A model generated the notes under the pieces. The model did no database searches. It saw only the letters and a list, made by a program, of their open reading frames with translations, and had not been told where the DNA came from. A stretch of 64,000 bases of DNA from Butyrivibrio sp. (GTDB taxonomy: Bacteria > Bacillota > Clostridia > Lachnospirales > Lachnospiraceae). The DNA lies in contig SVGC01000014.1 of assembly GCA_015056495.1 (NCBI GenBank), positions 1-64,000 of the forward strand, read 5' to 3'. The translations under genes were made by a program, and so were the position numbers. Below are positions 16,974 to 60,853 of this stretch, one piece after another (position 1 is the first letter of the stretch; every line of letters starts with the position of its first letter).

Positions 16974-17184
16974 GTGAGTCACCGGGGACGTATCAAAATG
17001 ACTCATTGTGTATATATTTTGTGTGAGTACAAATAGAAATCCGCACTGGCTGCGGATTTCGTGAGAACATGATTCAAGAGGCAAATAGGCTCTGCGACGT
17101 AGTCGCCTTTAAATAGCCTATTTGCAGTATTTTTGCCATGAAGTGGCAAAAATGAGTCATTTTGATACGTCCCCAGTGACTCAC
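16974..17184. repeat. REP-flanked three-hairpin element, copy 1
   Basis: 211 bp. Terminal inverted repeats of 34 bp (16974-17007 and 17151-17184) differ at one base. Inside are three hairpins: hp1 10 bp (17036-17045/17051-17060, loop CTGGC), hp2 10 bp (17081-17090/17116-17125) with an inner 5-bp stem, and hp3 10 bp (17129-17138/17144-17153), which is partly shared with the right terminal repeat. A degenerate extra half-repeat lies at 16954-16980, beginning at the TAA of the chemoreceptor gene. The 17185-17359 stretch beyond it is AT-rich and shows no gene. Copies 2 and 3 are at 28535 and 30828. Confidence 0.85.
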
Positions 17185-17359
17185 TTTTTTTATTCATTCC
17201 TGCACATTCCCCACACAGCCATGTATTCCACATACCGTAATATTATAGTCACAATATTGTATGCGGATTAAAATGGATGTACAATATATAGTGTATGGCT
17301 TGGGTATATCCTATACCTGAAATGAGCCATTTATGATCTGTTTGGGGGATGAAGTGAAC

Positions 17360-19828
17360 ATGGAGAAACAAGAGGAAAAGGCTGGAAATAGCTTTATGTT
17401 AAAGATTTGCGCTTTCATAGTAGATAAGCGGAATCTTTTCTTTTTGATATACGCAATTCTGTGTATATTTTCAGTTATAGCAAGAGGATGGGTTGGAGTT
17501 GAAAACCAGCTGTCAGAGTATCTTCCGGATACTTCAGAGACCAGGCAGGGACTTGACCTTATGGAAGAGCAGTTTACTACCTATGGCACTACCAAAGTCA
17601 TGGTAGCCAATATCTCCTATGATCAGGCACTGGAAATACAAAGCGACCTGGAGCAGATCGATGGCATTTTTTCAGTAGATGTAGATGAGTCTGAAAAACA
17701 CTATGCTAATGGGTCAGCTCTTTTTGACATTACTTTTGATTATGATGAAAGTGATGATCAGTGTTTGGTGCTGTTGGATCAGGTAAAAGAGTATTTTGAT
17801 GGATATGACTATTATCTGTCAACTTCACTGGGAGATACACAGTCAGAGCTTATTGCAGCAGAGATGAATGTTATCTCTGTAATAGTTGTTATTGTTGTTG
17901 TGGCTGTACTTTTGCTTACAAGCCAGGCATATGCAGAAGTTCCGGTTTTGTTATTGACCTTTGGAAGTGCTGCCCTTGTTCAGATGGGAACAAACTTCCT
18001 TCTTGGAACTATTTCTTTTGTATCCAATTCAGTAACTATAGTTCTTCAGCTGGCTCTCTCTGTAGACTATGCCGTCATATTCCTCAACAGGTATAAAGAG
18101 GAACATGCCAATTTGCCTGCCAGAGATGCCTGTATTGTTGCTCTTTCAAAATCCATTCCAGAGATATCAGGAAGCTCCCTTACAACCATAGGCGGACTTA
18201 TTGCAATGTTGTTCATGCAGTTTGGAATAGGTTCTGATATGGGTATAGTTTTGATCAAAGCCATATTGCTCAGTCTTTTATCAGTATTTCTTTTGATGCC
18301 TGGAATCATCATGCTTTTTGCAGGACTTATGGAAAAAACCAAGCATAAAAACTTTATTCCTGAAATCCCATTTGTAGGGAAATTTGCTTATTACAGTAGA
18401 TATATAATTGCACCGGCATTTGTAGTAGTGATCATTATAGCCAACAGGCTCTCTTCCAATACCCCATATGTTTATGGATATTCCAAGATCACTCCACCTC
18501 TAACCAATGCAGTGCAGGCTGCTCAGGACATGCAGGATGACAATTTCCAGTCTGATAATATGGTAGCACTGGTATTTCCTGCAGGAGATTATGAGAGAGA
18601 AAAACGTCTTATAGACAATCTTTTGACATACTCAGAAGTCTCGTCCATCACAGGACTTGCCAATACTGAGGCTTTAAATGGATACACATTAACAGAGAAG
18701 CTCTCACCAAGGCAGTTCTCAGAGTTATTGAACATAGATTATGAAGTGGCAGAACTGGTATATGCAGCATATGCGGTCAATGATGAAGATTATGCCAAAG
18801 CAGTCAATGGCCTTGCCAATTATAAGGTTCCACTCATTGATATGTTCATGTTTGTTTATCAGGAGGTTGAAGAAGGCTATGTGACACTGGATGATGAACT
18901 TATGCAGCAGCTCGAAGATGCCAACAGGATGATGACCTTTGCCAAGGACCAGCTGCAGGGGCCGGAGTATTCCCGTATATTGGTATATCTGACACTTCCT
19001 GAAGAATCTGATGAGACCTTTGCTTTTATAGATCAGCTCCATACCATCACTGAAAAATATTATGATGCAGATAAGATATTTGTTGTGGGCGAATCCGTCA
19101 GCCAGTATGATCTGAAAAAGTGCTTTGCAAGAGACAATACTGTTACCAGTGTCATCTCAATCCTGGCAGTTCTTGTGGTACTTCTTTTTACATTCAAATC
19201 TGCAGGAATGCCGGTGCTGTTGATTGTAGTTATCCAGGGATGTATCTGGATCAATTTCTCCATACCTGCAATACAACACGACAACCTCTTTTTCCTGGGG
19301 TACCTGATCGTAAGCTCTATTCAGATGGGTGCCAATATTGACTATGCGATCGTTATTGCAGGTCGCTACACAGAGCTTCGTGAGACTATGGGCAAAAAAG
19401 ATGCCATTGTAAATACCATGAATCTCTCGTTCCCGACTATCATCACATCCGGCACCATGCTTGCAGTGGCAGGCACACTGATCGGTAAGATGACATCAGA
19501 TTGCGCAATATACGGAATTGGAAAATGTCTTGGAAGAGGAACAATAATCTCAATATTGATAACCATGTTTGTACTGCCCCAGATACTGCTGGTGGGTGAT
19601 AAAGTCATTGAGCTGTCTGCATTTGTTATGAATATGCCTATCAGAACTACCCAGAGAAGTGGAACTATGCGTATCGATGGTGTAGTAAGAGGACGAATTG
19701 AAGGTGAAGTGACAGGTGTTGTACATGCTGTTGTCAAAGGTAACATTGCTGCCTTTGTTGAGAATGGCGACGTCAAGATGGTAAGCGAAGATGTGCCATA
19801 TTATTATTCAGAAGAGGAGGATGTCTGA
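17360..19828 (+). CDS. MMPL/RND-family membrane exporter
   Basis: 822 residues. One N-terminal membrane helix, a large extracellular loop, then a block of helices (about residues 165-345); a second extracellular domain and a second helix block (about 590-770) repeat this, the classic RND duplication. The short cytoplasmic tail is unusual: it has alternating Gly/Val repeats (RGRIEGEVTGVVHAVVKG), which resemble a small beta-helix as in bactofilins. GGGGGATG upstream supports the ATG at 17360; an in-frame ATG at 17333 is less likely. The adjacent GLUG protein starts at once after it. MMPL proteins export lipids or envelope components; the cargo is unknown here. Confidence 0.85.
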   Translation: MEKQEEKAGNSFMLKICAFIVDKRNLFFLIYAILCIFSVIARGWVGVENQLSEYLPDTSETRQGLDLMEEQFTTYGTTKVMVANISYDQALEIQSDLEQIDGIFSVDVDESEKHYANGSALFDITFDYDESDDQCLVLLDQVKEYFDGYDYYLSTSLGDTQSELIAAEMNVISVIVVIVVVAVLLLTSQAYAEVPVLLLTFGSAALVQMGTNFLLGTISFVSNSVTIVLQLALSVDYAVIFLNRYKEEHANLPARDACIVALSKSIPEISGSSLTTIGGLIAMLFMQFGIGSDMGIVLIKAILLSLLSVFLLMPGIIMLFAGLMEKTKHKNFIPEIPFVGKFAYYSRYIIAPAFVVVIIIANRLSSNTPYVYGYSKITPPLTNAVQAAQDMQDDNFQSDNMVALVFPAGDYEREKRLIDNLLTYSEVSSITGLANTEALNGYTLTEKLSPRQFSELLNIDYEVAELVYAAYAVNDEDYAKAVNGLANYKVPLIDMFMFVYQEVEEGYVTLDDELMQQLEDANRMMTFAKDQLQGPEYSRILVYLTLPEESDETFAFIDQLHTITEKYYDADKIFVVGESVSQYDLKKCFARDNTVTSVISILAVLVVLLFTFKSAGMPVLLIVVIQGCIWINFSIPAIQHDNLFFLGYLIVSSIQMGANIDYAIVIAGRYTELRETMGKKDAIVNTMNLSFPTIITSGTMLAVAGTLIGKMTSDCAIYGIGKCLGRGTIISILITMFVLPQILLVGDKVIELSAFVMNMPIRTTQRSGTMRIDGVVRGRIEGEVTGVVHAVVKGNIAAFVENGDVKMVSEDVPYYYSEEEDV

Positions 19829-19829
19829 T

Positions 19830-22800
19830 ATGAAAAAGAGGTTATGCATACTCCTACTTGGACTGATAATAGCAACAACTCCTGCCATGAGCGTTATGGC
19901 AGAGGAGACAAGTAGCACAGTTACTACAGGCACTATGAATGACGCTCTGGAAGATGAAACGGATGTTGATGAAGACATCAGAGAAGAAATAGAAGAAGAG
20001 ATCCCGGATGAGATAGAAGAAATCCGGATCAGTACAGCTGAGGAGTTTATGGATCTTGCCTCGAAATGCAGCCTGGATACCTGGTCAGTAAATAAAAAAG
20101 TAATTTTGATGAATGACATTTCACTTATAGGCTGCTCTTTTGCAGGCATACCGACTTTTGGCGGAACCTTTGATGGAATGGGACATACTATAAGTGATCT
20201 GAATGTAAGAGATGGCGTATCCTATACAGGACTGTTTTGCAGTACCCAGAAAACTGCAGTCATCAGCAATCTCAAAGTAAGCGGTACGGTGATCCCTTCG
20301 GGAAATCAGATAGTTATAGGAGGAATTGTTGGAGACAATTCAGGCCTTATAAGTGATTGCAGCTTTGATGGTATAGTATCAGGAAGCGATTATACTGGTG
20401 CGATAGTTGGTATCAATGAGCTGACAGGAGATATAAGAAATTGTACAAATAGTGGTTATATCAATGGAACCCACTTTACCGGAGGAATAGCTGGTGAAAA
20501 TATGGGAAATATCTTTGGTTGTACCAATTCTGCTCTTGTTAATACTACAAATACAGATACACAGATAACAGTTGATGCCATGCAGACTCTCAATACTGTG
20601 CTGGCCATAATCAAAAATGGAAACAGCAGCTCTGAGTCAGCCAATGCCGATGTTACAGTCACTGATACAGGAGGAATAGCAGGACTGTCTCTTGGAATCA
20701 TAAGGAGATGTGTAAATAACGGAGATGTAGGATACGAGCACGTTGGGTACAATGTGGGCGGCATAGTTGGAAGACAGTCAGGCTATGTGTGCAGATGTAC
20801 CAATAACGCTTTTATCCAGGGTAGAAAAGATGTGGGAGGTATCGTCGGTCAGGCTGAACCATATATTACAGTTGACCTGAGTTCGGATGTGGCTTATCAG
20901 TTAACGGAAGCTATAAGTAAGCTCCACGACATAGTGACAGTAACGTTGAACGATACGAGAAATCAGTCGGATGTCATCAGCAACAGATTGTCAGCAATTC
21001 AGCAATTTACTTCCAAAGCCATAGATGACGTAAGGTATATAGCCAGCGGAACTGTTGATTATGCCAATGGCGTGTCAGGAGCGGCTACAGAGGCTTTCTC
21101 AAGAGTAGACTATATTCTGGAAGAGTCATCCAAGAGTGGTGGCGTCATTGATAATGCAGAGAGTGCAGCCAAAAATGTCAGTAAATCTGCAGGGGAACTT
21201 GTAGATGCAGTAAATGACTTGGAGATTGAGCAGTACATGGATGATACAGACAAGAGGACGTACCAGACAGCCAAAGACACCCTCAGCAGTATCAGAAGTC
21301 AGTCTAACTATCTGACTCAGGACTACTATAACAGTGATGAAAGTAAATACCGCTATAACACCTATATTGTGTATCATAGAGGTGACAAAAGTGACTTGAA
21401 ATACTATGATGAAAATGATGTTGAGATTGCTGATCCTACTACCAGTTCATCAGGGACATGGAAGCATTCAACTGATATGGCTACCTTCCCGGTATCATCT
21501 TCAGATTCAAGATATGATGCAGATATAGCCCTATATAATAGTGCACAGTCTGACGTGGCATCTGGAGCAGAGACCTATGTAAAAGAGAACTATACAAGTC
21601 CGGTTGACGAAGTCCAAGGAATAGTTGATCAAACTGCATTGGTTCCAGAATATGCATACGACAGAGATCTGAGAAATGCTTCAGCTGATATGACTGTGCT
21701 GGTTCAGCGTTATTCACAGTATGCATCTGACGCTGCACGGGCAGATGCAAGCAAGGCAATGAACTCTCTGGATGCAGCATCTGATGATCTTCAAGGTGCT
21801 ACAACAGGTACTAAGAGCATAATAAATAACCTTGCAGGAAGAGATGATATATCTTTTCCACAGTTCAGTGCAGAGTACAAAGCTCATACCACTTCTCTTG
21901 CAGACAATATGCAGGGCATGAATGACAACTTTGGCCTTCTTAATACCGATGTTAATAATGCAACAGGTATTCTGGTGGATGATCTTCAAGCAATGAATGA
22001 TCAGTTCAACACCATAATGCTTTTATATACAGACGCTATTGATGGCGTTCTTGAGATGGATTATACAGCTGCCTTTGATGATGTCTCTTTTGACGAGGCT
22101 GAGACCTGTACCGATGCAACCATAGACAGCTGCCTTAATTATGGAATAGTAGAAGGAGATATTGATAGCTCTGGAATAGCTGGAACTATGGCTATCGAGT
22201 ATGACTTTGATAAAGAAAGTGATGTAACAGGTATTTCTGATTCCAAGCTCAATTCATCTTATCTGACTAAGTGCGTTTTGAGAGGCAATAAGAATTATGC
22301 TGATGCAGTAAGTGAGAAGAGCTATGCTGGAGGTATCTGCGGACTTCAGGAGATGGGAACCATCATTTATTGTTTTAACACGGGCAATATCAAATCTGCT
22401 TCAGGCGAGTACGTGGGCGGTGTTGTGGGCAGTTCGCTATCATACGTGGTTGGCTCAGAGTCCAAGGGAATCCTGACCGGAAGTACATACGTTGGAGGAA
22501 TTGCAGGAGATGGAACCCACATCAGCGATTGTACGACTATTGTAAAAATCCAGGATGCTGAGAACTGGTATGGAGCCATTGCCGGTCATGTGTCTGAAGA
22601 AGGCGTGGTAAGAAATAATTATTTTGTAAGTGATGAACTTGCAGGTATAAACAATGTCAGCTATTCGCTAAAGGCTGAGCCTGTAGAGTATGACAGCAGC
22701 GTTCTTTCAAGAGAGTTTGGACACCTTACTATTTCTTTTGTCTTAAGCGATGAAGAAGATCAGCTTATCAAGAAAATCAGTAGGAGCTTTGGCTCAAGTC

Positions 22801-23579
22801 TGAAGGAAACTGATTATCCTGAGGTGGATGAAAAAGAAGGATATTATGTAGTCTGGAGCCAGGACAGCATAGATAAAGTTATGACAGATCAGGTAATTAC
22901 AGCAACTTATGTGAAATACAGGACCACCATTGCTGAAGCAGATCCTGACAGCAAGCTGCATCAGAGTGAGCTACTGGTAGATGGAGAGTTCAAGGAAGAT
23001 GACGTACTTCAGGTCGATAAGGAAGTTTTTCTTGATAAGGATATTCTGGAGGATGTTGTAAAAAATGATCTGAGGAATAATGTAGATTATGAAAAGATAC
23101 ACCTTGTGATCCCGGATGATGGCCAGTCTATCCATCAGATCAGATATAAACCTGAGAGTGATTATGCAACGAAGGTGGAGAGCTATGAATTATATCTTGT
23201 AAATGGTGATAGTGAAGAGCTGATCGAGGCTACAGGAAAAATGGGCGAGTACGACACCTACAATCTGTCAGGCAATGACGTGGTACTGGTGGTGCGCTTT
23301 AAAGGCATTGCCACAAGATACTATAAGTACTTTATTATCTGCCTGATTCTGTTCCTGGTGCTCATAGCGATATTAGTTATTACTTTCATTGTGATCCATA
23401 GACATAAGGATAAACTGCCGAAGGCCATCAATAAGATCGCCAAGAATGTTTCGGAAAAAATAGAGAGTAAAGAGCAGATCTTCTATGATGAAAATGCACA
23501 TCATGAGGAAGAAAAAGATGATACAGAAAAAGAAGAAGCAGGAGAATCAGATCCTGAAGAATCAGTTGATAAGGAGTAA
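19830..23579 (+). CDS. Large membrane-anchored surface protein with GLUG repeats
   Basis: 1249 residues from the ATG at 19830 (AGGAGG at 19815-19820); it starts one base after the MMPL stop. A signal peptide ends near MSVMAEE. An acidic stretch follows, then GLUG-type repeats (about residues 95-345, e.g. GGIVGDNSGLISDCSF and GGIAGENMGNIFGCTNS) and again about 790-930. Between them is a long helical, probably coiled-coil, region (about 350-770). The C-terminus has one membrane helix (FIICLILFLVLIAILVIT) and an acidic/basic cytoplasmic tail. The protein is thus extracellular and anchored. Tight coupling to the MMPL exporter suggests a joint machine for export or envelope assembly. No enzyme motif seen. 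Confidence 0.8.
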   Translation: MKKRLCILLLGLIIATTPAMSVMAEETSSTVTTGTMNDALEDETDVDEDIREEIEEEIPDEIEEIRISTAEEFMDLASKCSLDTWSVNKKVILMNDISLIGCSFAGIPTFGGTFDGMGHTISDLNVRDGVSYTGLFCSTQKTAVISNLKVSGTVIPSGNQIVIGGIVGDNSGLISDCSFDGIVSGSDYTGAIVGINELTGDIRNCTNSGYINGTHFTGGIAGENMGNIFGCTNSALVNTTNTDTQITVDAMQTLNTVLAIIKNGNSSSESANADVTVTDTGGIAGLSLGIIRRCVNNGDVGYEHVGYNVGGIVGRQSGYVCRCTNNAFIQGRKDVGGIVGQAEPYITVDLSSDVAYQLTEAISKLHDIVTVTLNDTRNQSDVISNRLSAIQQFTSKAIDDVRYIASGTVDYANGVSGAATEAFSRVDYILEESSKSGGVIDNAESAAKNVSKSAGELVDAVNDLEIEQYMDDTDKRTYQTAKDTLSSIRSQSNYLTQDYYNSDESKYRYNTYIVYHRGDKSDLKYYDENDVEIADPTTSSSGTWKHSTDMATFPVSSSDSRYDADIALYNSAQSDVASGAETYVKENYTSPVDEVQGIVDQTALVPEYAYDRDLRNASADMTVLVQRYSQYASDAARADASKAMNSLDAASDDLQGATTGTKSIINNLAGRDDISFPQFSAEYKAHTTSLADNMQGMNDNFGLLNTDVNNATGILVDDLQAMNDQFNTIMLLYTDAIDGVLEMDYTAAFDDVSFDEAETCTDATIDSCLNYGIVEGDIDSSGIAGTMAIEYDFDKESDVTGISDSKLNSSYLTKCVLRGNKNYADAVSEKSYAGGICGLQEMGTIIYCFNTGNIKSASGEYVGGVVGSSLSYVVGSESKGILTGSTYVGGIAGDGTHISDCTTIVKIQDAENWYGAIAGHVSEEGVVRNNYFVSDELAGINNVSYSLKAEPVEYDSSVLSREFGHLTISFVLSDEEDQLIKKISRSFGSSLKETDYPEVDEKEGYYVVWSQDSIDKVMTDQVITATYVKYRTTIAEADPDSKLHQSELLVDGEFKEDDVLQVDKEVFLDKDILEDVVKNDLRNNVDYEKIHLVIPDDGQSIHQIRYKPESDYATKVESYELYLVNGDSEELIEATGKMGEYDTYNLSGNDVVLVVRFKGIATRYYKYFIICLILFLVLIAILVITFIVIHRHKDKLPKAINKIAKNVSEKIESKEQIFYDENAHHEEEKDDTEKEEAGESDPEESVDKE

Positions 23580-23586
23580 ATAATTT

Positions 23587-23651
23587 TGAGTCAGTGAGGT
23601 GTGACGAAAAGTGAGCTATTATTTCACTTTTGACACACTTCAGCTGACTCA
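23587..23651. repeat. Divergent REP-like palindrome
   Basis: The tips TGAGTCAG and CTGACTCA match the family, but the GGGGACGTATCA core is replaced by a different imperfectly paired sequence (GAAAAGTGA / TTCACTTTTG). It starts 7 bases after the stop of the GLUG gene. Confidence 0.65.
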
Positions 23652-23850
23652 TTTTTGTATCATAGGAAATTGCTTTCCTATGATACAAAAAACGCTCCGC
23701 TAAGGATGCGCACTCGCGCGATAGGTAAATGTTGCATAAATGCAACCGCGCTCGGCGCGAGAATGTCGCAAGCGACATTCTTTTGCATATTAGATTTAGC
23801 GCTGCGCTCCCATAACTCGGTCTCGATTTGCCAAGTGTGATACAATATCT
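23652..23850. repeat. Array of hairpins with GC-rich interior
   Basis: First a perfect 18-bp stem (23652-23669/23674-23691, loop TTGC) with T residues on its 5' side and A residues on its 3' side, so it is not an intrinsic terminator. Then a GC-rich stretch unlike its surroundings, containing GTTGCAT-AA-ATGCAAC, a GCGC-rich pair and GAATGTCG-CAAG-CGACATTC. TGATACAA near the right end repeats the right arm of the first hairpin. No protein is plausible. It follows the REP at 23587 as a cargo would. Confidence 0.6.
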
Positions 23851-23887
23851 TAGTGACTTAAGTGAGTGAGAAAATGGAAGTGTTAGA

Positions 23888-24769
23888 ATGAGTAATTTAT
23901 TAAAAAATGTAAGTAACAAATCTAAAGGTATTATCTGCATACTTTTTGCAGCGCTGGGATTTTCACTCATGACATTTTTTGTAAGATTGTCAGGTGATGT
24001 TCCTACAATGGAAAAGGCATTTTTTAGAAATGCAGTTGCTATAGTAGTATCACTTTTTCTTCTTATAAGATCGGGAGAAAAATTTGAGATCAAAAAAGGC
24101 TGCGGAACAGATATATTTTTCAGATGTCTTTTTGGAACCAGTGGGCTGATTGCCAATTTCTATGCAATAGACAGACTTAATATTGCAGATGCCAACATGC
24201 TGAATAAGTTGTCACCATTTTTTGCCATCATATTGTCTATTCCAATTCTGAAAGAAAAACCAAAGAAGCTTGATATATTAGCTGTTATTATAGCGTTTCT
24301 CGGAGCCATGCTCATAGTAAGACCTACAGGAAGCAATATGCAGCTTGTTCCAGCACTTATTGGACTATACGGAGGTTTTGGCGCCGGTACTGCATATGTA
24401 TTTGTAAGGAGACTTGGGAAAAAGGGAGAGCGCACGCCGATAATCGTTCTGTGCTTTTCGATTTTTTCAACTGTTATAACTATCCCATTTATCATTGCTG
24501 ATTTTGTAATGCTGAGTCCTATCCAGTTACTATTCCTGATATTGGCAGGTATGTCAGCAACTCTTGGACAGTTCGGTATTACTTCTGCATATAAATTCGC
24601 TCCTGCAAAAGAGATATCTGTATTTGATTATACACAGGTAATATTTGCTGCTATCCTTGGAATGTTGTTCCTTGGAGAAGTGCCTACAGTCCTGTCTGTA
24701 ATTGGCTATGTGGTCATTATAGGTGTTGCAGCTATGAGATGGAGATACAATTTAAAAAATGCTGATTGA
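23888..24769 (+). CDS. EamA/DMT-family membrane transporter
   Basis: 293 residues with ten hydrophobic segments in two repeats of five, the drug/metabolite transporter layout (EamA domains about 15-145 and 160-285). It begins after a short basic start and keeps the conserved helix ends (FLGAMLIVRPTG and FLGEVPTVLSVIGYVVII). Substrate cannot be deduced; members export amino acids, nucleosides or drugs. The ribosome site is weak (GGAAG). It is separated from the chromate transporter genes by about 100 bp. Confidence 0.85.
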   Translation: MSNLLKNVSNKSKGIICILFAALGFSLMTFFVRLSGDVPTMEKAFFRNAVAIVVSLFLLIRSGEKFEIKKGCGTDIFFRCLFGTSGLIANFYAIDRLNIADANMLNKLSPFFAIILSIPILKEKPKKLDILAVIIAFLGAMLIVRPTGSNMQLVPALIGLYGGFGAGTAYVFVRRLGKKGERTPIIVLCFSIFSTVITIPFIIADFVMLSPIQLLFLILAGMSATLGQFGITSAYKFAPAKEISVFDYTQVIFAAILGMLFLGEVPTVLSVIGYVVIIGVAAMRWRYNLKNAD

Positions 24770-24874
24770 GCTTGAATTTGTGGCACAACAAGTGCACTTT
24801 GAGGAATAATATAGTTGATCAACCAGTCCATTGTGGATAATTGAGGAATATATGAGCAAAACGGAGTACAGGAT

Positions 24875-25453
24875 ATGGATATAGATGTTAAGACTAAAAG
24901 AGCCAGGCTTAAAACATTATTTTTTTCAACCTTATATCTTAGCACCTTCACTTTTGGCGGAGGATATGTCATCATCTCACTTTTGAAAAAGAAGTTTGTT
25001 GATGAGCTTAAGTGGATAAACAATGAGGAAATGCTTGATTATGTGGCTATCGCCCAGTCGGCACCGGGACCTATTGCAGTTAATGGTGCGATCGTTATAG
25101 GCTACAAGGTATGCGGGTTGTGGGGAATCTTTTTTGCTGTTCTAGGTGCGGTCATACCGCCTTTTGTGATCTTAACTGTGATCTCAGCTTTTTACAGCAT
25201 ATTTAAGAGCAATCAGTATATTCAGGCTGCACTGTTTGGAATGAAATCCGGGGTAAGCGCCGTGATCGTGTCTGTGGTCTGGGATATGGCAGCAGGCGTT
25301 GTAAAATCAAAGGATGCACTGCTTATTGCTATAATGGTGATTGCTTTTATTCTTAATTACTATTTCAATGTGAATGCTGTTCTGATAATATTAAGTACGC
25401 TTGCTATTGGGATTGCAAGGTCACTGATCACAAGGAGGATTGCGAAAAGATGA
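24875..25453 (+). CDS. Chromate transporter family protein, first half
   Basis: 192 residues. The single CHR domain shows the family hallmarks STFTFGGGYVIISLLKK, a FVDELKW segment and APGPIAVNGA. Short CHR proteins work as pairs with opposite topology, and the second one overlaps this gene's stop by 4 bases. Family members carry chromate or related anions; the true substrate in an anaerobe is uncertain. Confidence 0.85.
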   Translation: MDIDVKTKRARLKTLFFSTLYLSTFTFGGGYVIISLLKKKFVDELKWINNEEMLDYVAIAQSAPGPIAVNGAIVIGYKVCGLWGIFFAVLGAVIPPFVILTVISAFYSIFKSNQYIQAALFGMKSGVSAVIVSVVWDMAAGVVKSKDALLIAIMVIAFILNYYFNVNAVLIILSTLAIGIARSLITRRIAKR

Positions 25454-26013
25454 TATATTTACAGTTATTTCTGGCTTTTCTCCAGGTAGGTGCATTTAGC
25501 TTTGGAGGCGGATATGCAGCTATGCCCCTTATCAGTGCCCAGGTGGTGGATAAGTATGGATGGCTGTCTGCTTCTGATTTTGCTGATCTTGTTACAATCT
25601 CTCAGATGACACCGGGACCAATTGCAATCAATGCTGCAACCTTTGTGGGAAATCAGCTTGCAGGAATTCCGGGAGCACTGGTAGCTACTATTGGCGTTAT
25701 TACACCATCATGTATATTTGTGACAATACTTGCTTTTCTGTATACGAGGTATAAGGAATTGTCGGTTTTAAAGGATGCGCTGTTGTCTCTAAGGCCTGCG
25801 GTAGTATCAATGATATTTGTAGCAGGTTTGATCATTCTTGTTCCGGCTATTTTTAAGTCTGGAGAGATAAGCTTTGCGGAGGGTAATTTTTCTATAAGGC
25901 CATTTCTTTTATTTATTGGAAGTGTTTTTGTATTAAGGAAGTTTAAGCTGGATCCGATCCTTGTGATGGTAGCATGCGGAGTAATAGAAGTGATATTTTA
26001 TGTTATGATATAA
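25450..26013 (+). CDS. Chromate transporter family protein, second half
   Basis: 187 residues with the paired CHR signatures (GAFSFGGGYAAMPLIS, TPGPIAINAATFVG). Its ATG lies in the last codons of the first half, giving tight coupling and likely a heterodimer. About five to six membrane helices. No terminator is evident after it. Confidence 0.85.
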   Translation: MIYLQLFLAFLQVGAFSFGGGYAAMPLISAQVVDKYGWLSASDFADLVTISQMTPGPIAINAATFVGNQLAGIPGALVATIGVITPSCIFVTILAFLYTRYKELSVLKDALLSLRPAVVSMIFVAGLIILVPAIFKSGEISFAEGNFSIRPFLLFIGSVFVLRKFKLDPILVMVACGVIEVIFYVMI

Positions 26014-26035
26014 GATATAGTTTGCATATTGTCAT

Positions 26036-26054
26036 AATAATGATAATAATTTGA
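26036..26054 (+). promoter_or_regulatory. Fur-box-like site upstream of feoB
   Basis: The sequence around ATAATGATAAT agrees with the 19-bp Fur consensus at 14 of 19 positions. It lies about 120 bp before the FeoAB gene, which fits iron-dependent repression. A DtxR-type regulator is an alternative. Confidence 0.5.
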
Positions 26055-26170
26055 AGCGTTATTTCCGATAATATTTTTGAAGGTTTGAATTACAGGAATA
26101 TTATGATTAGTAAAATGGCGTAAGTCTTTTATAGTTTAACACGCCGGTTAGGTTAGAAAAGGTAATATAA

Positions 26171-28531
26171 ATGAATTTAAGAGAATTAGAAATTGGTCAG
26201 ACTGCTACAATTAAGACTGTGGGCGGAAGTGGAGCCCTTAGACAGCATTTCCTTGATATGGGCATGATCCCTGGTGGAGAAGTGTCTTTGATAAAGTATG
26301 CTCCTTTGGGAGATCCAATGGAACTCATGGTCTCAGGCTATGAGCTGACTATACGTCTGGCTGACGCAGAAAATATAGAGATAGAAAATGTACGAAGCAC
26401 AAAAAGTGCAGGCGCTTCAGCTAAAAAGAATATAGTAAAAGAAATACCTCACCCTTCTTTAGGTGAGAGCGCTCAGGTGCATGATTATTACAAGGAGCAT
26501 AAGGATAAGGTCGTTAATGCTGGTAAGCTTACATTTGCTCTTGTAGGTAACCAGAACTGTGGAAAGACAACTCTTTTCAATCAGTTAACCGGTGCCAACC
26601 AGCATGTAGGTAATTTCCCTGGTGTTACTGTTGATAGGAAGAGCGGTTCCATTAAGGGACATCCTGAAACAGAAGTTGTGGATCTGCCTGGAATATATTC
26701 CATGTCTCCATATACAAATGAGGAGATCGTTTCAAGACGCTTTGTACTTGAAGAAGATCCATCTGCCATCATCAATATAGTAGATGCTACCAATATTGAG
26801 CGAAATCTGTACCTGACAATGCAGTTGCTTGAACTGGATATTCCAATGGTCATAGCTCTTAACATGATGGATGAGATGACTGGTAATCAGGGCGCTGTAA
26901 ATATCAATCTGTTGGAAAAGCTGATCAAGGTTCCTGTTGTTCCTATTTCAGCTGCTAAGAATCAGGGTATTGAAGAGCTTGTGGATCATGCAATCCATAT
27001 TGCTAAATATGGTGAGAAACCGGGGCTTGAAGATTATTGTGAAAAAGATGCTAACGGAGGCGCTGTACACAGAGCTATGCATTCCATCATGAGTCTTATT
27101 GAGGACCATGCGGAAAAAGCTGAGATACCTATTAGGTTTGCTGCGTGTAAATTGATAGAGGGTGATCCTCTTGTGGAAAAATCCCTTGATCTCCATGAGG
27201 CTGATAGAGAAGTTCTTGAGAAAATTATTACTCAGATGGAGGAAGAGCGTGGTCTTGATAGGGCAGCAGCCATTGCTGATATGCGTTTTACCTTTATCCG
27301 CAAGATCTGCAGCGAGACTGTTGTTAAGCCAAAAGAAAGCAAAGAGCATGCCCGCAGTAGAAAGCTTGACCAGATATTTACAGGTAAGTGGACTGCAATA
27401 CCAACCTTTATCATTATCATGGGTCTTGTATTCTTTCTGACTTTTAATGTGATAGGAGCATTTTTACAGGGAATATTGGAAGATATTATTGGTCTGCTCA
27501 CAGAATATGTAGATGGCGCTTTAACTACTTACAATGTTGCAGCTCCGATCCATTCACTCATAATCGATGCGATATTTGAAGGTGTCGGATCTGTACTGAG
27601 CTTTGTACCGATCATCGTTACTCTATACTTCTTCCTGTCAATGCTTGAAGACAGTGGATATATGGCAAGAGTAGCTTTCTTTATGGATAAGCTCTTAAGA
27701 AGACTTGGATTATCAGGACGAAGCATAGTTCCTATGCTGGTAGGATTTGGATGTAGTGTTCCGGCGGTAATGGCAACCAGGACACTTCCATCAGATAGAG
27801 ATAGAAAGATGACTCAGCTGCTGATCCCATTTATGAGCTGTAGTGCCAAGATGCCGATATATGCATTTTTTGCAGCGACATTTTTCCCAAGATATGCCGC
27901 GCTTATAACAGTATCTTTGTACTTTATTGGAATAATAGTAGCGATCCTGATAGCGCTGATTGGTAAAAATACAGTATTTAAAGGCGAAGCTGTTCCGTTT
28001 GTAATGGAGCTTCCAAACTATAGATTACCTGGACTTAAAAATGTCCTGATGCTGATGTGGGACAAGGCCAAAGACTTTATCCAGAGAGCATTTACAGTAA
28101 TCTTCCTTGGAACAGTTGCAGTATGGTTCTTACAGAACTTCAATCTGTCATTTAACATGGTCTCTGACTCAGAAGATAGTATCCTTGCTATGATAGCTGG
28201 AGTTCTTGCACCAATATTTGTTCCTCTTGGGTTTGGTAACTGGAAGACAGTGACATCACTTATTTCAGGTTTCCTTGCAAAAGAGAGTGTAGTATCAATG
28301 CTGACAGTGCTCTATGGCGGCTCTGAAGGACTCCTTGCAGAGATGACCGGTCTGAATGCATTTACATTCCTTATATTCTGCCTGCTCTATACACCATGTG
28401 TAGCCGCAGTTGCAGCCATTAAGCGAGAAGCAGGCCGCAAGGCAGCTATCAAGCTGGTACTATTCCAGTGCGCAGTTGCCTGGGTAGTAGCATTTATTGT
28501 GAGAATTATTGGATTAGCTATCCTTGGATAA
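26171..28531 (+). CDS. feoB: Ferrous iron transporter, FeoA-FeoB fusion
   Basis: 786 residues. Residues 1-73 are a FeoA SH3-like domain (LRELEIGQTATIKTVGG). After a linker comes the FeoB G domain with G1 GNQNCGKT (126-133), G3 DLPGIYS, G4 NMMD and G5 SAAK. The C-terminal half is the membrane domain with the two Gate motifs, including GCSVPAVMATRTL and CSAKMPIYAFF. It imports Fe2+ across the cytoplasmic membrane. A separate FeoA is absent, explained by the fusion. The stop is followed 3 bases later by a REP-flanked element. Confidence 0.93.
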   Translation: MNLRELEIGQTATIKTVGGSGALRQHFLDMGMIPGGEVSLIKYAPLGDPMELMVSGYELTIRLADAENIEIENVRSTKSAGASAKKNIVKEIPHPSLGESAQVHDYYKEHKDKVVNAGKLTFALVGNQNCGKTTLFNQLTGANQHVGNFPGVTVDRKSGSIKGHPETEVVDLPGIYSMSPYTNEEIVSRRFVLEEDPSAIINIVDATNIERNLYLTMQLLELDIPMVIALNMMDEMTGNQGAVNINLLEKLIKVPVVPISAAKNQGIEELVDHAIHIAKYGEKPGLEDYCEKDANGGAVHRAMHSIMSLIEDHAEKAEIPIRFAACKLIEGDPLVEKSLDLHEADREVLEKIITQMEEERGLDRAAAIADMRFTFIRKICSETVVKPKESKEHARSRKLDQIFTGKWTAIPTFIIIMGLVFFLTFNVIGAFLQGILEDIIGLLTEYVDGALTTYNVAAPIHSLIIDAIFEGVGSVLSFVPIIVTLYFFLSMLEDSGYMARVAFFMDKLLRRLGLSGRSIVPMLVGFGCSVPAVMATRTLPSDRDRKMTQLLIPFMSCSAKMPIYAFFAATFFPRYAALITVSLYFIGIIVAILIALIGKNTVFKGEAVPFVMELPNYRLPGLKNVLMLMWDKAKDFIQRAFTVIFLGTVAVWFLQNFNLSFNMVSDSEDSILAMIAGVLAPIFVPLGFGNWKTVTSLISGFLAKESVVSMLTVLYGGSEGLLAEMTGLNAFTFLIFCLLYTPCVAAVAAIKREAGRKAAIKLVLFQCAVAWVVAFIVRIIGLAILG

Positions 28532-28534
28532 AAA

Positions 28535-28744
28535 GTGAGTCACTGGGGACGTATCAATTTGACTCATTTTTGTCACTTTGTGACAAAAATACTGCAAATA
28601 GGCTATTTAAAGGCGACTTCGTCGCAGAGCCTATTTGCCTCTTGAATCATGTTCTCACGAAATCCGCAGCCAGTGCGGATTTCTATTTGAACTCACACAA
28701 AAAATATATACCAATGAGTCAAATTGATACGTCCCCAGTGACTC
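28535..28744. repeat. REP-flanked three-hairpin element, copy 2 (inverted)
   Basis: 210 bp, opposite in orientation to copy 1. Terminal repeats of 32 bp are perfect complements. In plus-strand order: hp3 (28566-28576/28580-28590), hp2 (28594-28603/28629-28638) and hp1 (28659-28668/28674-28683). hp3 differs in sequence from copy 1 (TCAC/GTGA against CCA/TGG) but still pairs. It lies between the convergent feoB and GH120 genes, 3 and 5 bases from their stops. Confidence 0.85.
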
Positions 28745-28749
28745 TTTTT

Positions 28750-30744
28750 CTATTTCCAGATAAGAATTTCTTTTTCTTCGAGGCTTGCAAGAGGGCCAGG
28801 TATTGCTGATGCTGCGCGGTGGTCATCTAAGAAGTCTTTGTCGAATATGATATCGGATCCGTCAGGACTTTCAAATCTCTGCTCTGGCTCGAAGGCTGTG
28901 CCAAGAGTAGTGGTACTGATGATACCGTCTTCAAAGCTTTTGAGCTTGTCAGCCAGATTAGTTTTCAGATACCATTTTCCGGATTTTTCTTCAAGTTCAA
29001 CAGTGACCTTGGACTTTTTATCAACAAGGTTATGCTTCTCTTTGTGGTAAACAGTTGCCCCGTTGAAATAAGCGTTGCCATCGATCCAGACAGGCAGGTG
29101 GCCGAAGTGAGCTTCTGCAAGGCCTCCCATGTCTGGGTGTTTTGTGAAATCAAACTGATCAGTCCATTCTTCTTCTGTCGGGAAGATATCAAATGGTGCA
29201 GTTCCAACTACCATGTAGTCTGCGTCTGCAGCAGTCTTTTTCTTGTCTGTAACCTTGTATTTCTGAACAAAAATATTGTTATAAATGCGGTCATCACCAT
29301 GAAGGATTGTCATGAAACCGGCAACCTCAGTGCGGTGACGGATGTGATATGGTGTATATCTAGGCTCACGCTGGCCATTTACTATGCTGTCAACACCTGA
29401 ATTGATGAGGCTGAAGCTTCCCAGGACAAGGTTGTGGACACAGGCAATGCCTTCACTAGGAATGGTGATTGATACAGGTGAGAGCAGGAAGTTATTGTCT
29501 ATAAGTGTCGGACCATGACCTACCTCTACAAATACATCAGTATTGAACATTGCTCCTGGAGCCTGATCAACACCTTCAGGTCTTGTGTTATCGTGCATCA
29601 GATTCTGAGTCACTCTTGCGCCCTGAGCCTGCCAGTCAAGCCATACACCCATGATACAGTTGTGTATATGATTTCTTCTGATAGTTACATCTATTGCAGC
29701 ATGGAGCTTGATACCAGCAGTCTCTGCACCGCCAAGCTGCTGTGAAGTGCAGATATCATGAATATGGCAATCCTCAATAGTTGAGAATACACCGCCCATT
29801 CTGCCTACAATACCAGTCTGCTCGCAGTGGTGGATATGACATCTGCGGATGGTATGGTGGCCAATTTTTTCTTTTAACCAGCCGTGATACTGACCGCGGC
29901 ATACTGCATCACGTTCCATCTGAGTAGGGCTCTTAACATGCTTTTTGGTAAAATACATATCATTCTCAGGATCAAGATATTTACCAAGGGATATACCACA
30001 GCATCTGCTACCGTAGATCTCGCAGTCTTCGATGACCCATCCCATACTCCAGTGAGGACCAATCATACCGTCCTGATAAGCTGCAGGTGGAGCCCATGTG
30101 GTAGCAGCTTTATTGATATTGAATCCCTGTACAGTAATGTAATCGATGTGATTTTCTAATGGCATGAAACAATTACGTCTTACAGTAAATTCGACATTTT
30201 CCTTGTTAGGATCTTTTTTCTGGAAATTGGCATAGATGACAGTCTCATCATCTTTCTGCTCTGTGTACCACAGGTACATAGCGCTTTCCTTATCCCAGGC
30301 TCTTGGATCTGGTTTACCATTTTTACATTCCTCAAGGGATGCTGTTTCATACATCATCTGATCATTCAGGAACAGACAACCTGTATGTCTGATCTCAGGT
30401 GAAAAATACCAGTCTCCGTAAACTACTGTTGTATATGGATTGTATTCTCCAAAGATGCTGTTTTTTACCCTCATAGTCCAAAGAGAACCTTTAACCTTAG
30501 TCCAGTTTGTAGCTGGTTCAGCACCTGTTATGACAGCTTTTAATGGTTCTTCAGAACGATAAACGATAGGTTTTTCTTTCGTTCCAGCATGGATAGGAGA
30601 AACATATTCTCTGTATATTCCAGGCTTTACCAGTACTTCATCGCCAGGTAAAGCAATTTTTGCGGCATCATTAATGTTTTTAAATGGGTTAGCCTTAGTT
30701 CCGTCGCCGTTGCGAAATGTATTGGCATCTACGTAATAAATCAT
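28750..30744 (-). CDS. GH120 beta-xylosidase
   Basis: 664 residues from the ATG at 30744, which has TTGGAGGAG upstream on this strand. The whole protein is a right-handed beta-helix with an inserted domain, closely resembling Thermoanaerobacterium XylC of family GH120 (e.g. MIYYVDANTF start, IFGEYNPY, TWAPPAAYQDG, AGIKLHAAIDV). The GH120 nucleophile Asp is D370 (GVWLDWQAQG) and the acid/base Glu is E407 (DVFVEVGHG). No signal peptide, so it acts on imported xylo-oligosaccharides in the cytoplasm. It is divergent from a LacI regulator and flanked by two inverted copies of the three-hairpin module. Confidence 0.87.
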   Translation of the reverse strand: MIYYVDANTFRNGDGTKANPFKNINDAAKIALPGDEVLVKPGIYREYVSPIHAGTKEKPIVYRSEEPLKAVITGAEPATNWTKVKGSLWTMRVKNSIFGEYNPYTTVVYGDWYFSPEIRHTGCLFLNDQMMYETASLEECKNGKPDPRAWDKESAMYLWYTEQKDDETVIYANFQKKDPNKENVEFTVRRNCFMPLENHIDYITVQGFNINKAATTWAPPAAYQDGMIGPHWSMGWVIEDCEIYGSRCCGISLGKYLDPENDMYFTKKHVKSPTQMERDAVCRGQYHGWLKEKIGHHTIRRCHIHHCEQTGIVGRMGGVFSTIEDCHIHDICTSQQLGGAETAGIKLHAAIDVTIRRNHIHNCIMGVWLDWQAQGARVTQNLMHDNTRPEGVDQAPGAMFNTDVFVEVGHGPTLIDNNFLLSPVSITIPSEGIACVHNLVLGSFSLINSGVDSIVNGQREPRYTPYHIRHRTEVAGFMTILHGDDRIYNNIFVQKYKVTDKKKTAADADYMVVGTAPFDIFPTEEEWTDQFDFTKHPDMGGLAEAHFGHLPVWIDGNAYFNGATVYHKEKHNLVDKKSKVTVELEEKSGKWYLKTNLADKLKSFEDGIISTTTLGTAFEPEQRFESPDGSDIIFDKDFLDDHRAASAIPGPLASLEEKEILIWK

Positions 30745-30827
30745 CAGTCTCCTCCAATCAAAAATATGGTCACTGACTTCTGTAAAAACAGGAAAACAGT
30801 AACAAATGTACAAACTATGTATTCTTG

Positions 30828-30959
30828 TGACTTCAAACAGAAAACCGCACTAGCTGCGGTTTTCGTAAGACAGTGAAACAAGAGGCAACCAAGCCCTTCG
30901 ATGTTAATCGACTTTAAATGGCTTGGTTGCAACATTTTTGAACTTTATGTTCAAAAATG
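30828..30959. repeat. Three-hairpin module without REP ends, copy 3
   Basis: Same order and spacing as copy 1 but diverged: hp1 30840-30849/30855-30864 (loop CTAGC), hp2 30885-30894/30921-30930 with inner CGAT/ATCG, and hp3 30933-30943/30949-30959. Nearly every difference from copy 1 within a stem is matched on the other arm. Conserved single strands are CAAGAGGCA and CTTTAAAT. It sits in the 5' region of the GH120 gene; the rest of the 30745-31161 gap holds the LacI operators and promoter. Confidence 0.8.
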
Positions 30960-30968
30960 CATAATTTT

Positions 30969-30982
30969 GTTTAACGATTTAC
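30969..30982. promoter_or_regulatory. LacI-type operator O1
   Basis: GTTTAACGATTTAC, identical to the operator at 31127. The central CG with AT-rich arms is typical of LacI-family sites. It lies 225 bp before the GH120 start, so it may serve the divergent gene. Confidence 0.65.
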
Positions 30983-31088
30983 ACTAGATATGTATTCATA
31001 CTATGATTGATATATACAAAAGTCAATGCAACATGCACAAAAAACTTGTCAATTATTGCTGTTTTGTATGCAGTTTAACAAATTAATA

Positions 31089-59798: not shown

Positions 59799-59834
59799 TT
59801 TCCCTCCACATTATCTAGTTGTATTTTTTAAATA

Positions 59835-59873
59835 ATCTCACGGAATCCACATTAGATGCAGATTTCGTGAGAT
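59835..59873. repeat. Isolated hp1-like hairpin
   Basis: An inverted repeat (ATCTCACGGAATCCACA with GATGCAGATTTCGTGAGAT) resembles hp1 and its CTCACGAAAT flank in the three-hairpin element, but no other module or REP end is present. It lies between the AraC gene and the esterase-GH43 gene. Confidence 0.5.
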
Positions 59874-59887
59874 CATATTTAAAAACG

Positions 59888-60853
59888 TTATTGAGTTTTT
59901 TTCTCCCTGACCGGAGTTCTTTTGTGCTTATTTGGAGCGCCTGAAAAAAGAGCGCGGTATTCGCTTGGAGTACATCCTTTCTTTTGTTTGAAAGTACGGT
60001 TGAATGTGGAAATGCTGGAGAAACCTGATTGCAGGGCTATATCCGTTATGGATAAGCCGTTTTTGGCAAGCAGCACTTCCGTTGCTTTGATCCTCTGGCC
60101 GACCAGATAGTCATAGAACGTACAGTTCATGTATTCCTTAAAAAGTCTGGAAAAATGAAACATGGAAAAACCACTATACGCTGCAACTTCTTCAAGAGTT
60201 ATGTCATATGCATAATTCTGATCTATATAATCGATTGCGTTGTTTAATTTCTCAAAATACTCATGACGCTTGATAGGAGTACTATCTGTAAAGAGATTGA
60301 TCTTGGTCAGATGGTATCTTGAAAGCGTTGTCATGATCTGGAACAGATGTGAATATATTGAAAACTCATAAAATTCTGTTTTCTGAAAATATTCATCCCA
60401 TATACTAGAGAACAGATCATACACCTCATTGTATATAGGCGCATGACTCTCAGGAGTGATGTGTATGCAGTTCTGCAGCATATTTATCAGACTGGAATAT
60501 CCTCTAAGGGATGAAAAAAAGTCTATATCAAAAAGACACACATATCTGCAGCCGGTTCTTGGGGCATGCAGAGAGTGTGGTTTACGGGGAGGTATTATGA
60601 TGATCTCCCCCGGTTTTACACGATATGGATGTGAGTCTACTTCGACATCATAGTAATTCTCTATTGGAACAATGATCTCAAGAGCATTATGCCAATGTGA
60701 AGGATAATCAACATTGAGCTCGTTGTACCATATCCTCAAAGAGCTGTCTACAGGGAATATGTGCTGTTCCTTATCATTTATTATGTCGCGAGTTTTATAA
60801 TCACTATTTTGCTGATAATAATCGAGCTTATTCTTAACCTCTCTCCGTATCAT
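59888..60853 (-). CDS. AraC-family transcriptional regulator
   Basis: 321 residues. An N-terminal cupin sensor domain (SHWHNALEIIVP, RVKPGEIIIIPPRKPHSL) is followed by the AraC helix-turn-helix pair (ITLEEVAAYSGFSMFHFSRLF and SITDIALQSGFSSISTFNR). Regulators of this kind bind a sugar and activate nearby glycosidase genes. It is divergent from the GH10 xylanase and upstream of the esterase-GH43 gene on the same strand, so either is a likely target. The start has a weak ribosome site. Confidence 0.9.
   Translation of the reverse strand: MIRREVKNKLDYYQQNSDYKTRDIINDKEQHIFPVDSSLRIWYNELNVDYPSHWHNALEIIVPIENYYDVEVDSHPYRVKPGEIIIIPPRKPHSLHAPRTGCRYVCLFDIDFFSSLRGYSSLINMLQNCIHITPESHAPIYNEVYDLFSSIWDEYFQKTEFYEFSIYSHLFQIMTTLSRYHLTKINLFTDSTPIKRHEYFEKLNNAIDYIDQNYAYDITLEEVAAYSGFSMFHFSRLFKEYMNCTFYDYLVGQRIKATEVLLAKNGLSITDIALQSGFSSISTFNRTFKQKKGCTPSEYRALFSGAPNKHKRTPVREKKTQ

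Follow-up and report, generated by a model that had tools for sequence, protein, structure and literature searches.

A probable small mobile element with a conserved three-hairpin body in Butyrivibrio and other genera of its family

Three modules in a stretch of Butyrivibrio sp. DNA share three hairpins (hp1, hp2 and hp3) in the same order, which raises the question of what kind of unit carries this fold. The stretch, called the window below, comprises 64,000 nucleotides (GenBank assembly GCA_015056495.1, contig SVGC01000014.1, positions 1 to 64,000). A preliminary description, made from its letters, had proposed that the modules are a small RNA or a unit mobilised as single-stranded DNA, and that selection acts on the fold. 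Our analysis indicates that they are probably copies of a mobile element, non-autonomous and about 143 bp long, that is similar to miniature inverted-repeat transposable elements (MITEs) and consists of transposon ends and a structured body kept by selection on one strand.

Copies in the window and their relatives

A covariance model, R1, was built from a MAFFT alignment of 18 copies in this genome (17 distinct), and a second model, R2, from non-Butyrivibrio copies only. R1 gives 35 matches in the genome to an element of about 143 nt, and the window modules are three of them; their positions and common hairpin order are as first described, and the cores are matched at E values of 1.5e-34 to 3.8e-33. 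R2 finds the same three copies at E 1e-22 to 1e-24 and otherwise nothing in the window below 0.19, a result that amounts to consistency rather than full independence, because the members of R2 were gathered with R1. The features of the three copies are as follows.

17012–17157, + strand: structured core of copy 1 (subfamily A); R1 157.8 bits, E 3.8e-33; R2 match at 17013–17157, E 1.8e-23
17036–17060, + strand: hp1 of copy 1, GAAATCCGCACTGGCTGCGGATTTC, from letters and structure
17061–17080, + strand: linker of copy 1, GTGAGAACATGATTCAAGAG, from letters; several near-invariant columns across 35 copies
17081–17125, + strand: hp2 of copy 1, with an inner stem and a one-sided internal loop containing TTTAAAT
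17128–17154, + strand: hp3 of copy 1, with the right end of the element within its 3' arm
16976–17007, + strand: left REP-like repeat of copy 1
17151–17182, − strand: right REP-like repeat of copy 1, inverted, one base unlike the left repeat
28562–28707, − strand: structured core of copy 2 (subfamily A); R1 E 1.5e-34; R2 match at 28562–28706, E 1.6e-24
28537–28568, + strand: REP-like repeat of copy 2
28713–28744, − strand: REP-like repeat of copy 2, inverted, identical to its partner
30817–30962, + strand: bare core of copy 3 (subfamily C), AT at both ends, without the REP pair; R1 E 6.3e-34; R2 E 2.8e-22
30840–30864, + strand: hp1 of copy 3
30885–30930, + strand: hp2 of copy 3
30933–30959, + strand: hp3 of copy 3

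Copies 1 and 2 are near-identical, and the genome holds three more copies of copy 3, at 97, 95 and 90% identity. Copies 1 and 2 are longer than copy 3 because their core sits between inverted 32-bp repeats (GAGTCACYGGGGACGTATCA..TGACTCATT), resembling repetitive extragenic palindromic (REP) sequences, which are missing from copy 3. A DNA search of the genome found eight compound copies (one of them, L008, with a degraded left repeat), bare copies of subfamily B, and fragments. A weak match at 59819–59953 of the window (R1 E 0.018, R2 E 0.19), with an hp1-like GAATCCACATTAGATGCAGATTTCGTGAGATCAT, is probably a decayed copy.

The covariance-model search of genus and family that had been proposed with the preliminary description shows the element to be widespread. 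R1 matches 54 of 79 genus genomes (E ≤ 0.001), with at least 685 matches among those listed, and 33 of 397 genomes of the family (E ≤ 1e-5), which we take to be the Lachnospiraceae; 28 of 334 genera are represented, and two of the 33 genomes are Butyrivibrio. In a class-wide sample, R2 matches six of 391 genomes, all six belonging to the same family. Because at most 40 candidates per genome were scored in the genus and at most eight in the family and class, the copy numbers given are minimum values and weak matches may have been overlooked. Nearly all of the matches listed in a pattern scan of named records are Butyrivibrio (at least 80 loci, 113 stretches); also among the matches listed are one metagenome-assembled genome (MAG) labelled Eubacterium and one labelled Roseburia. 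Records of B. hungatei are among those that show the hp1 pattern. Some genus genomes carry head-to-tail copies with a period of 143–144, in register, and these tandem arrays are heterotypic, being made of different subtypes.

Rfam gave no match above its curated cut-off in the window, and a permissive search of 28500–31000 also found nothing on the element. Among 20 relatives the element was again unmatched by Rfam, the only matches being tRNA and SpF66, both outside the element at the locus L269. The latter match (SpF66_sRNA, 1925–2150, − strand) lies near the element and the tRNA and is barely over its cut-off (45.8 vs 42 bits). No description of the element was found in titles and abstracts of the literature searched, a search outside which most subscription journals lie.

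Conservation of the fold and the strand on which it is read

The structure comprises 46 pairs. Between copies 1 and 3, nine pairs are changed on both sides, in agreement with the "about nine" first reported, 31 are unchanged, six are changed on one side, and none is changed on both sides but broken. A further compensated hp3 pair in copy 2 (GCCA..TGGC vs GTCA..TGAC), likewise as described, lies in a column pair that is not among the 46. Of the motifs described as unpaired and conserved, CAAGAG needs correction, as it pairs with the left-end TTCTTG as an outer stem in copy 3 and many relatives (79% of cells paired).

In the 18 genome copies, 94.8% of cells are paired, 14 pairs are doubly changed (shuffled mean 9.0; slid controls 1–5), and the covariation score is 0.261 (0.115 shuffled; 0.013–0.060 slid), and each of these three values was reached by 0 of 500 shuffles. 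Further pair types were not above the shuffles in these copies (21 vs 23.4). Three larger sets were then compared with the same controls: A2, from the genus (64 matches, 54 distinct rows, among them seven that score under 45 bits, some of these in reverse orientation); A3, with 29 non-Butyrivibrio rows; and A5, with 106 non-Butyrivibrio rows from 99 loci (28 + 71). Six non-Butyrivibrio matches near contig ends were left out of the sequence sets.

Changes confined to one arm of the stems, which would speak against selection on the fold, are not what the further copies show: in A2 both arms change in 38 of 46 pairs (shuffled mean 18.0, slid 9–18), with a covariation of 0.31 (0.12 shuffled, at most 0.07 slid). 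In A3 the figures are 40 of 46 (shuffled 32.9, slid 18–27) and 0.73 (0.19 shuffled). A5 has 43 of 46 doubly changed pairs (shuffled mean 38.2, slid 26–34), a count of little discriminating power in so deep an alignment; its doubly changed cells number 1,089, as against 324 when shuffled, and its covariation is 0.599 (0.175 shuffled, at most 0.10 slid). The covariation score discriminates better than the count of doubly changed pairs in A2, A3 and A5, and selection on the fold has firmer support here than the three window copies could give.

Because A2, A3 and A5 are fitted to a model, 35 copies (25 of the 29 A3 rows and 10 chosen Butyrivibrio copies) were aligned by sequence alone. From this alignment RNAalifold predicted hp1 and hp2 unaided, 22 of the 25 pairs having compensatory changes; hp3 was not recovered from these 35 copies. 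The non-Butyrivibrio relatives retain hp1, linker, hp2 and hp3 despite largely different stem letters. A pseudoknot between the hp1 loop and the linker was judged implausible from geometry alone.

On the read strand, G-U pairs exceed A-C mismatches in hp1, hp2 and hp3 of A2, A5 and a further set, A4. The clearest cases are hp1 (G-U:A-C of 13:4 in A2, 45:2 in A4 and 28:13 in A5) and hp3 in A5 (64:9); in the inner stem the two are nearly balanced (1:1, 5:2 and 5:3). Counted over the 46 pair columns, G-U leads in 34 and A-C in 5 in A5 (16 vs 9 in A2). Copies are nearly all intergenic on crude open reading frame (ORF) calls, three of 99 A5 copies overlapping an ORF of more than 600 nt. Counts of gene context, and those of insertion sites, ends and duplications below, exclude near-duplicate flanks and copies near contig ends. 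Between co-directional genes, 44 copies outside Butyrivibrio lie in sense and 17 in antisense orientation (p 7e-4), and 38 and 22 do so in the genus set (p 0.05); divergent and convergent sites (23 to 6) are uninformative on strand. Together, the G-U excess and the sense bias suggest selection on a transcribed RNA, and the pattern in the sequences suggests that this may be a folded RNA read with the neighbouring gene.

There is no conserved coding frame: a conserved small peptide from ATGATTCARGAG was considered and rejected, since in relatives the reading frame that opens at the conserved ATG runs into stops or frameshifts (by eye). A Shine–Dalgarno role of CARGAGG was also rejected, as the motif is not kept in the CAAGAGTCA subtypes. 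Two truncated left-end copies (L041 and L043) place (C)AAGAGG at the ribosome-binding position before host start codons, and their downstream genes resemble, by eye, glycoside hydrolase and NeuB.

Ends, insertion sites and possible mobilisers

That the modules belong to a mobile unit, as had been suggested, is supported by terminal inverted repeats and 8-bp target duplications in the relatives, and by dispersed multiple copies and a nested insertion in the genus. Outside Butyrivibrio, most elements start with a GTWACTGTTCA-like sequence and finish with its inverse. An inverted repeat of at least 9/12 is present in 90 of 103 non-Butyrivibrio elements, the other 13 being without one, in 46 of 54 in A2, and in 67 of 83 in A4. 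Target duplications of 8 bp are exact in 34 of the 90 non-Butyrivibrio elements and match at 7/8 or better in 50; 30 control trials, in which borders were re-optimised on swapped flanks, averaged 0.87 and never exceeded 3. In these 50 copies the termini are 125–147 bp apart. In A4, nine of 67 have an 8-bp duplication (control mean 1.9, maximum 4); five are of GTTAC type, four of them in Eubacterium- or Roseburia-labelled records, and four are of Butyrivibrio type, including at least three tandem junctions.

Butyrivibrio copies are inserted just 3' of YAT, and AT recurs at both sides. Over 78 genus-set insertions (tandem included), AT is preceded by T in 55 cases and by C in 14, and the right-hand AT is followed by A in 50 and by G in 25. 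This profile suggests, as a candidate only, an IS30-like 2-bp duplication at a palindromic target. The loci L084 and L122 are one gene junction in two genomes: at L084 a single element precedes AAGAATTTAATACGG, and at L122 that element is joined by a second one, of a different subtype, which lies between ..GYAT and AAGAATTTAATACGG. It follows from the comparison that the second element was inserted exactly at the right end of the first. The inserted unit reads G...YAT or, equivalently, has AT on either side, and the two ATs may be a 2-bp duplication or the target plus the right end. A single 8-kb segment (L206) from a Butyrivibrio MAG contains both kinds of end. The same structured body is thus carried by transposon ends of two kinds or more.

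A pointer to the mobiliser outside Butyrivibrio comes from the genome G327, which contains a 1,845-bp IS4-family element with 16/16 matching termini (GTTACTGTTCACTCCG), beginning GTTACTGTTCAC. The same genome holds a second family of 141–144 bp (L414–L419 and L421) with the same GTTACTGTTCAC ends, another hairpin-rich body unmatched by R2, and 8-bp duplications of 7/8 to 8/8 by eye. It also holds 27-bp palindromes made of the two ends only (L285, L286 and L287; duplications of 7/8, 8/8 and 7/8 by eye), which are perhaps close to the smallest possible MITE.

An IS4-type mobiliser was also considered for Butyrivibrio and rejected: PF01609 is present in nine of 10 genomes, but no matched end pair was found in the 30 loci examined, which gave scattered 11–23-base matches to the element ends (best E 0.002). 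The idea that left-end-only copies are parts of larger gene cassettes was likewise abandoned, as 12 of them examined by ORF listing have ordinary-looking neighbours; no transposase was recognised beside these 12 in that listing, which included no family search on the ORFs.

The cores of copies 1 and 2 are nested between inverted REP-like palindromes, whose arms match or nearly match within each compound copy. Judged from the eight compound copies, the core appears to have been captured between these palindromes and amplified with them in this genome. Near-perfect palindromes of the GAGTCACYGGGGACGTATCA..TGACTCATT type are abundant on many contigs as inverted pairs, with or without the core, and some are bordered by five A and five T, resembling a two-way terminator. 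Left-end fragments at L039 and L054 have short tandem repeats beside them, whose units resemble CATGCCACC..AAGCATTTTTGTGAAAGG or are related to it.

Alternative explanations and related elements

The explanation that we consider probable, a MITE-like element with a structured body, would work as follows. The left and right termini would form imperfect inverted repeats, with the right terminus also serving as the hp3 3' arm. The element would be moved as DNA by a transposase supplied in trans. Outside Butyrivibrio this would probably be a DDE enzyme of the IS4 kind; the 8-bp duplications are observed, and the enzyme is suggested by a single insertion sequence (IS). In Butyrivibrio other ends would be used, with insertion 3' of YAT and, in several instances, directly abutting the right end of an earlier element. 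Hairpins hp1 and hp2 and the linker CGTRAGAAMRTGATTCARGAG would make up the body, which would be under one-strand selection, most likely as RNA read out with the neighbouring gene, and which in the transcript would serve as a leader with a fold or as an insulator. Copies 1 and 2 would in addition be nested between the inverted REP-like repeats and amplified with them.

A number of observations weigh against this explanation. The IS4-family element of G327 is a single copy, is broken by a stop and has a duplication of only 5/8; it is a pointer rather than proof because it is stop-broken and without a clean duplication, and it alone has such ends among loci from the 10 genomes searched. A search for inverted-end pairs over Butyrivibrio loci gave nothing, and no mobiliser was found for the Butyrivibrio ends. 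In A2, 8-bp duplications occur in three of 46 elements (control mean 1.7), which is no excess. Sets A2, A3, A4 and A5 were aligned by fitting to a model and so lean towards its structure; paired positions of the core are more conserved than unpaired ones in A2 (0.86 vs 0.79); and the outer stem is weakly paired (57–82% of cells). The G-U excess is not significant alone in hp2 and hp3 of A2 and A4 (several helices p 0.05–1) and is reversed in the outer stem of A5 (34:42), and its counts are of cells, not independent events, in sets gathered with a model that mildly favours G-U. The orientation bias depends on ORF calls that are crude, and this genome has none: between co-directional genes four copies are sense and three antisense. 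The earlier statement that orientation to genes varies is correct here; outside Butyrivibrio the sense direction prevails.

A second reading, which we regard as possible though tentative, is that the element is a mobile structured RNA module, in which one fold is kept family-wide by compensatory change and carried by unrelated ends, so that the RNA and not the transposon is the unit of selection. Its carriers might be the IS4-like ends with 8-bp duplications, the AT-type ends and the shell of paired REP-like repeats, and it would persist through the action of the RNA in transcripts.

It is unlikely that a Y1 transposase (IS200/IS605 or REP-associated tyrosine transposase, RAYT) moves the element as single-stranded DNA and that the fold is kept because this enzyme reads hairpins. 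Both ends do carry hairpins whose stem motifs are alike, insertion is 3' of a short fixed YAT, the unit ends in YAT, no longer duplication is seen in Butyrivibrio, and REP-like repeats enclose copies 1 and 2. On the Butyrivibrio copies alone the absence of duplications would fit such an enzyme, but relatives with the same body have 8-bp duplications, indicative of double-strand transposition of the DDE kind; mobilisation as a single strand, as first suggested, is thus not supported outside Butyrivibrio and has no positive support within it. Y1 genes and copies do not correspond one to one: the genome G045 (83% complete) has 21 copies and no Y1 match, and G016 has six Y1 genes and no copy. The 14 Y1 loci examined, of many more existing, gave no BLAST match to the element. 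Two RAYT-like Y1 genes in this genome (L059 and L060 on G000:C34; open frames of 280 and 278 aa) have AGGGGACGGGG-type repeats on both sides, which differ from the REP-like palindromes of the window but are similar in design; the window palindromes do not flank these genes. A substrate role would also leave the conservation of the internal hp2 unexplained.

It seems less likely still that the modules are an independent gene for a small regulatory RNA, multiplied by simple duplication. Such a gene would account for the covariation and the conserved unpaired motifs, but not for terminal repeats, target duplications, tens of copies in some genomes and insertion into another copy; moreover the flanking genes are unlike one another among the loci compared, and Rfam has no match.

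Template switching within hairpins, by which one arm is rewritten from the other with no selection on the fold, is very unlikely. Perfect palindromes consisting of the ends only do occur (the 27-bp units of G327 with target duplications), and REP arms match each other within compound copies. Outside Butyrivibrio, however, the unpaired core is more conserved than the stems (0.84 vs 0.71 in A5), the same helices and one-sided internal loop recur in 28 genera, and G-U tends to exceed A-C; these three findings weigh against arm rewriting because it predicts none of them. A role mainly as a terminator or attenuator (hp3) spread by transposition fits the intergenic sites and the stable hp3 but is highly improbable, as no T-run directly follows hp3 in the copies inspected, hp1 and hp2 are left unexplained, and sense placement before a co-directional gene would be harmful.

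We file the element as MITE-like; its Butyrivibrio form does not show the 8-bp duplications. By description, MITEs are shorter than 500 bp, gene-free and intergenic, with inverted and direct repeats, and structured if transcribed; their transcripts form stem-loops for which riboswitch-like roles are conceivable, and IS elements are named as their main source (PMC10969869). The present element is likewise short, gene-free and intergenic, with inverted repeats and, outside Butyrivibrio, direct repeats, but its body is more widely shared than its ends.

The closest analogue appears to be the BOX element of Streptococcus pneumoniae, which is described as interspersed, with terminal inverted repeats and target duplications, and as highly structured if transcribed; mobilisation in trans by an IS has been proposed, and effects on co-transcribed genes are thought likely (PMC3049150). 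BOX has a modular A-B-C build and, outside pneumococcus and S. mitis, is described as nearly absent from streptococci, related elements being present in S. suis; the terms "covari" and "compensatory" are absent from the main text of that paper (PMC3049150). The likeness, compared by description and not by sequence, lies in the short interspersed form, the terminal inverted repeats and the target duplications, and the difference is that the present element has a single three-hairpin body in 28 genera and two kinds of end. Variation in the style of boxA-boxB-boxC was not noticed in A2 and A5, for which the models require the whole body.

Copies 1 and 2 resemble REP and bacterial interspersed mosaic element (BIME) systems with RAYTs (PMC2817692) in that inverted REP-like palindromes, themselves abundant as separate units, surround them, but the core occurs without these palindromes in copy 3, other subfamilies and other genera. 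The IS4-family element shares GTTACTGTTCAC with part of the relatives; the present element differs in having no transposase, and its Butyrivibrio ends are of another type.

MITE bodies are commonly regarded as IS leftovers. Here the shape of the body is kept across 28 genera though the moving ends differ, and the matches listed, at least 685, supply hundreds of natural variants. The covariance models can now be used to annotate such repeats. It can now be asked whether short repeats that move deliver a functional RNA part to the mRNAs of bacteria, and whether the RNA protects the element from being purged.

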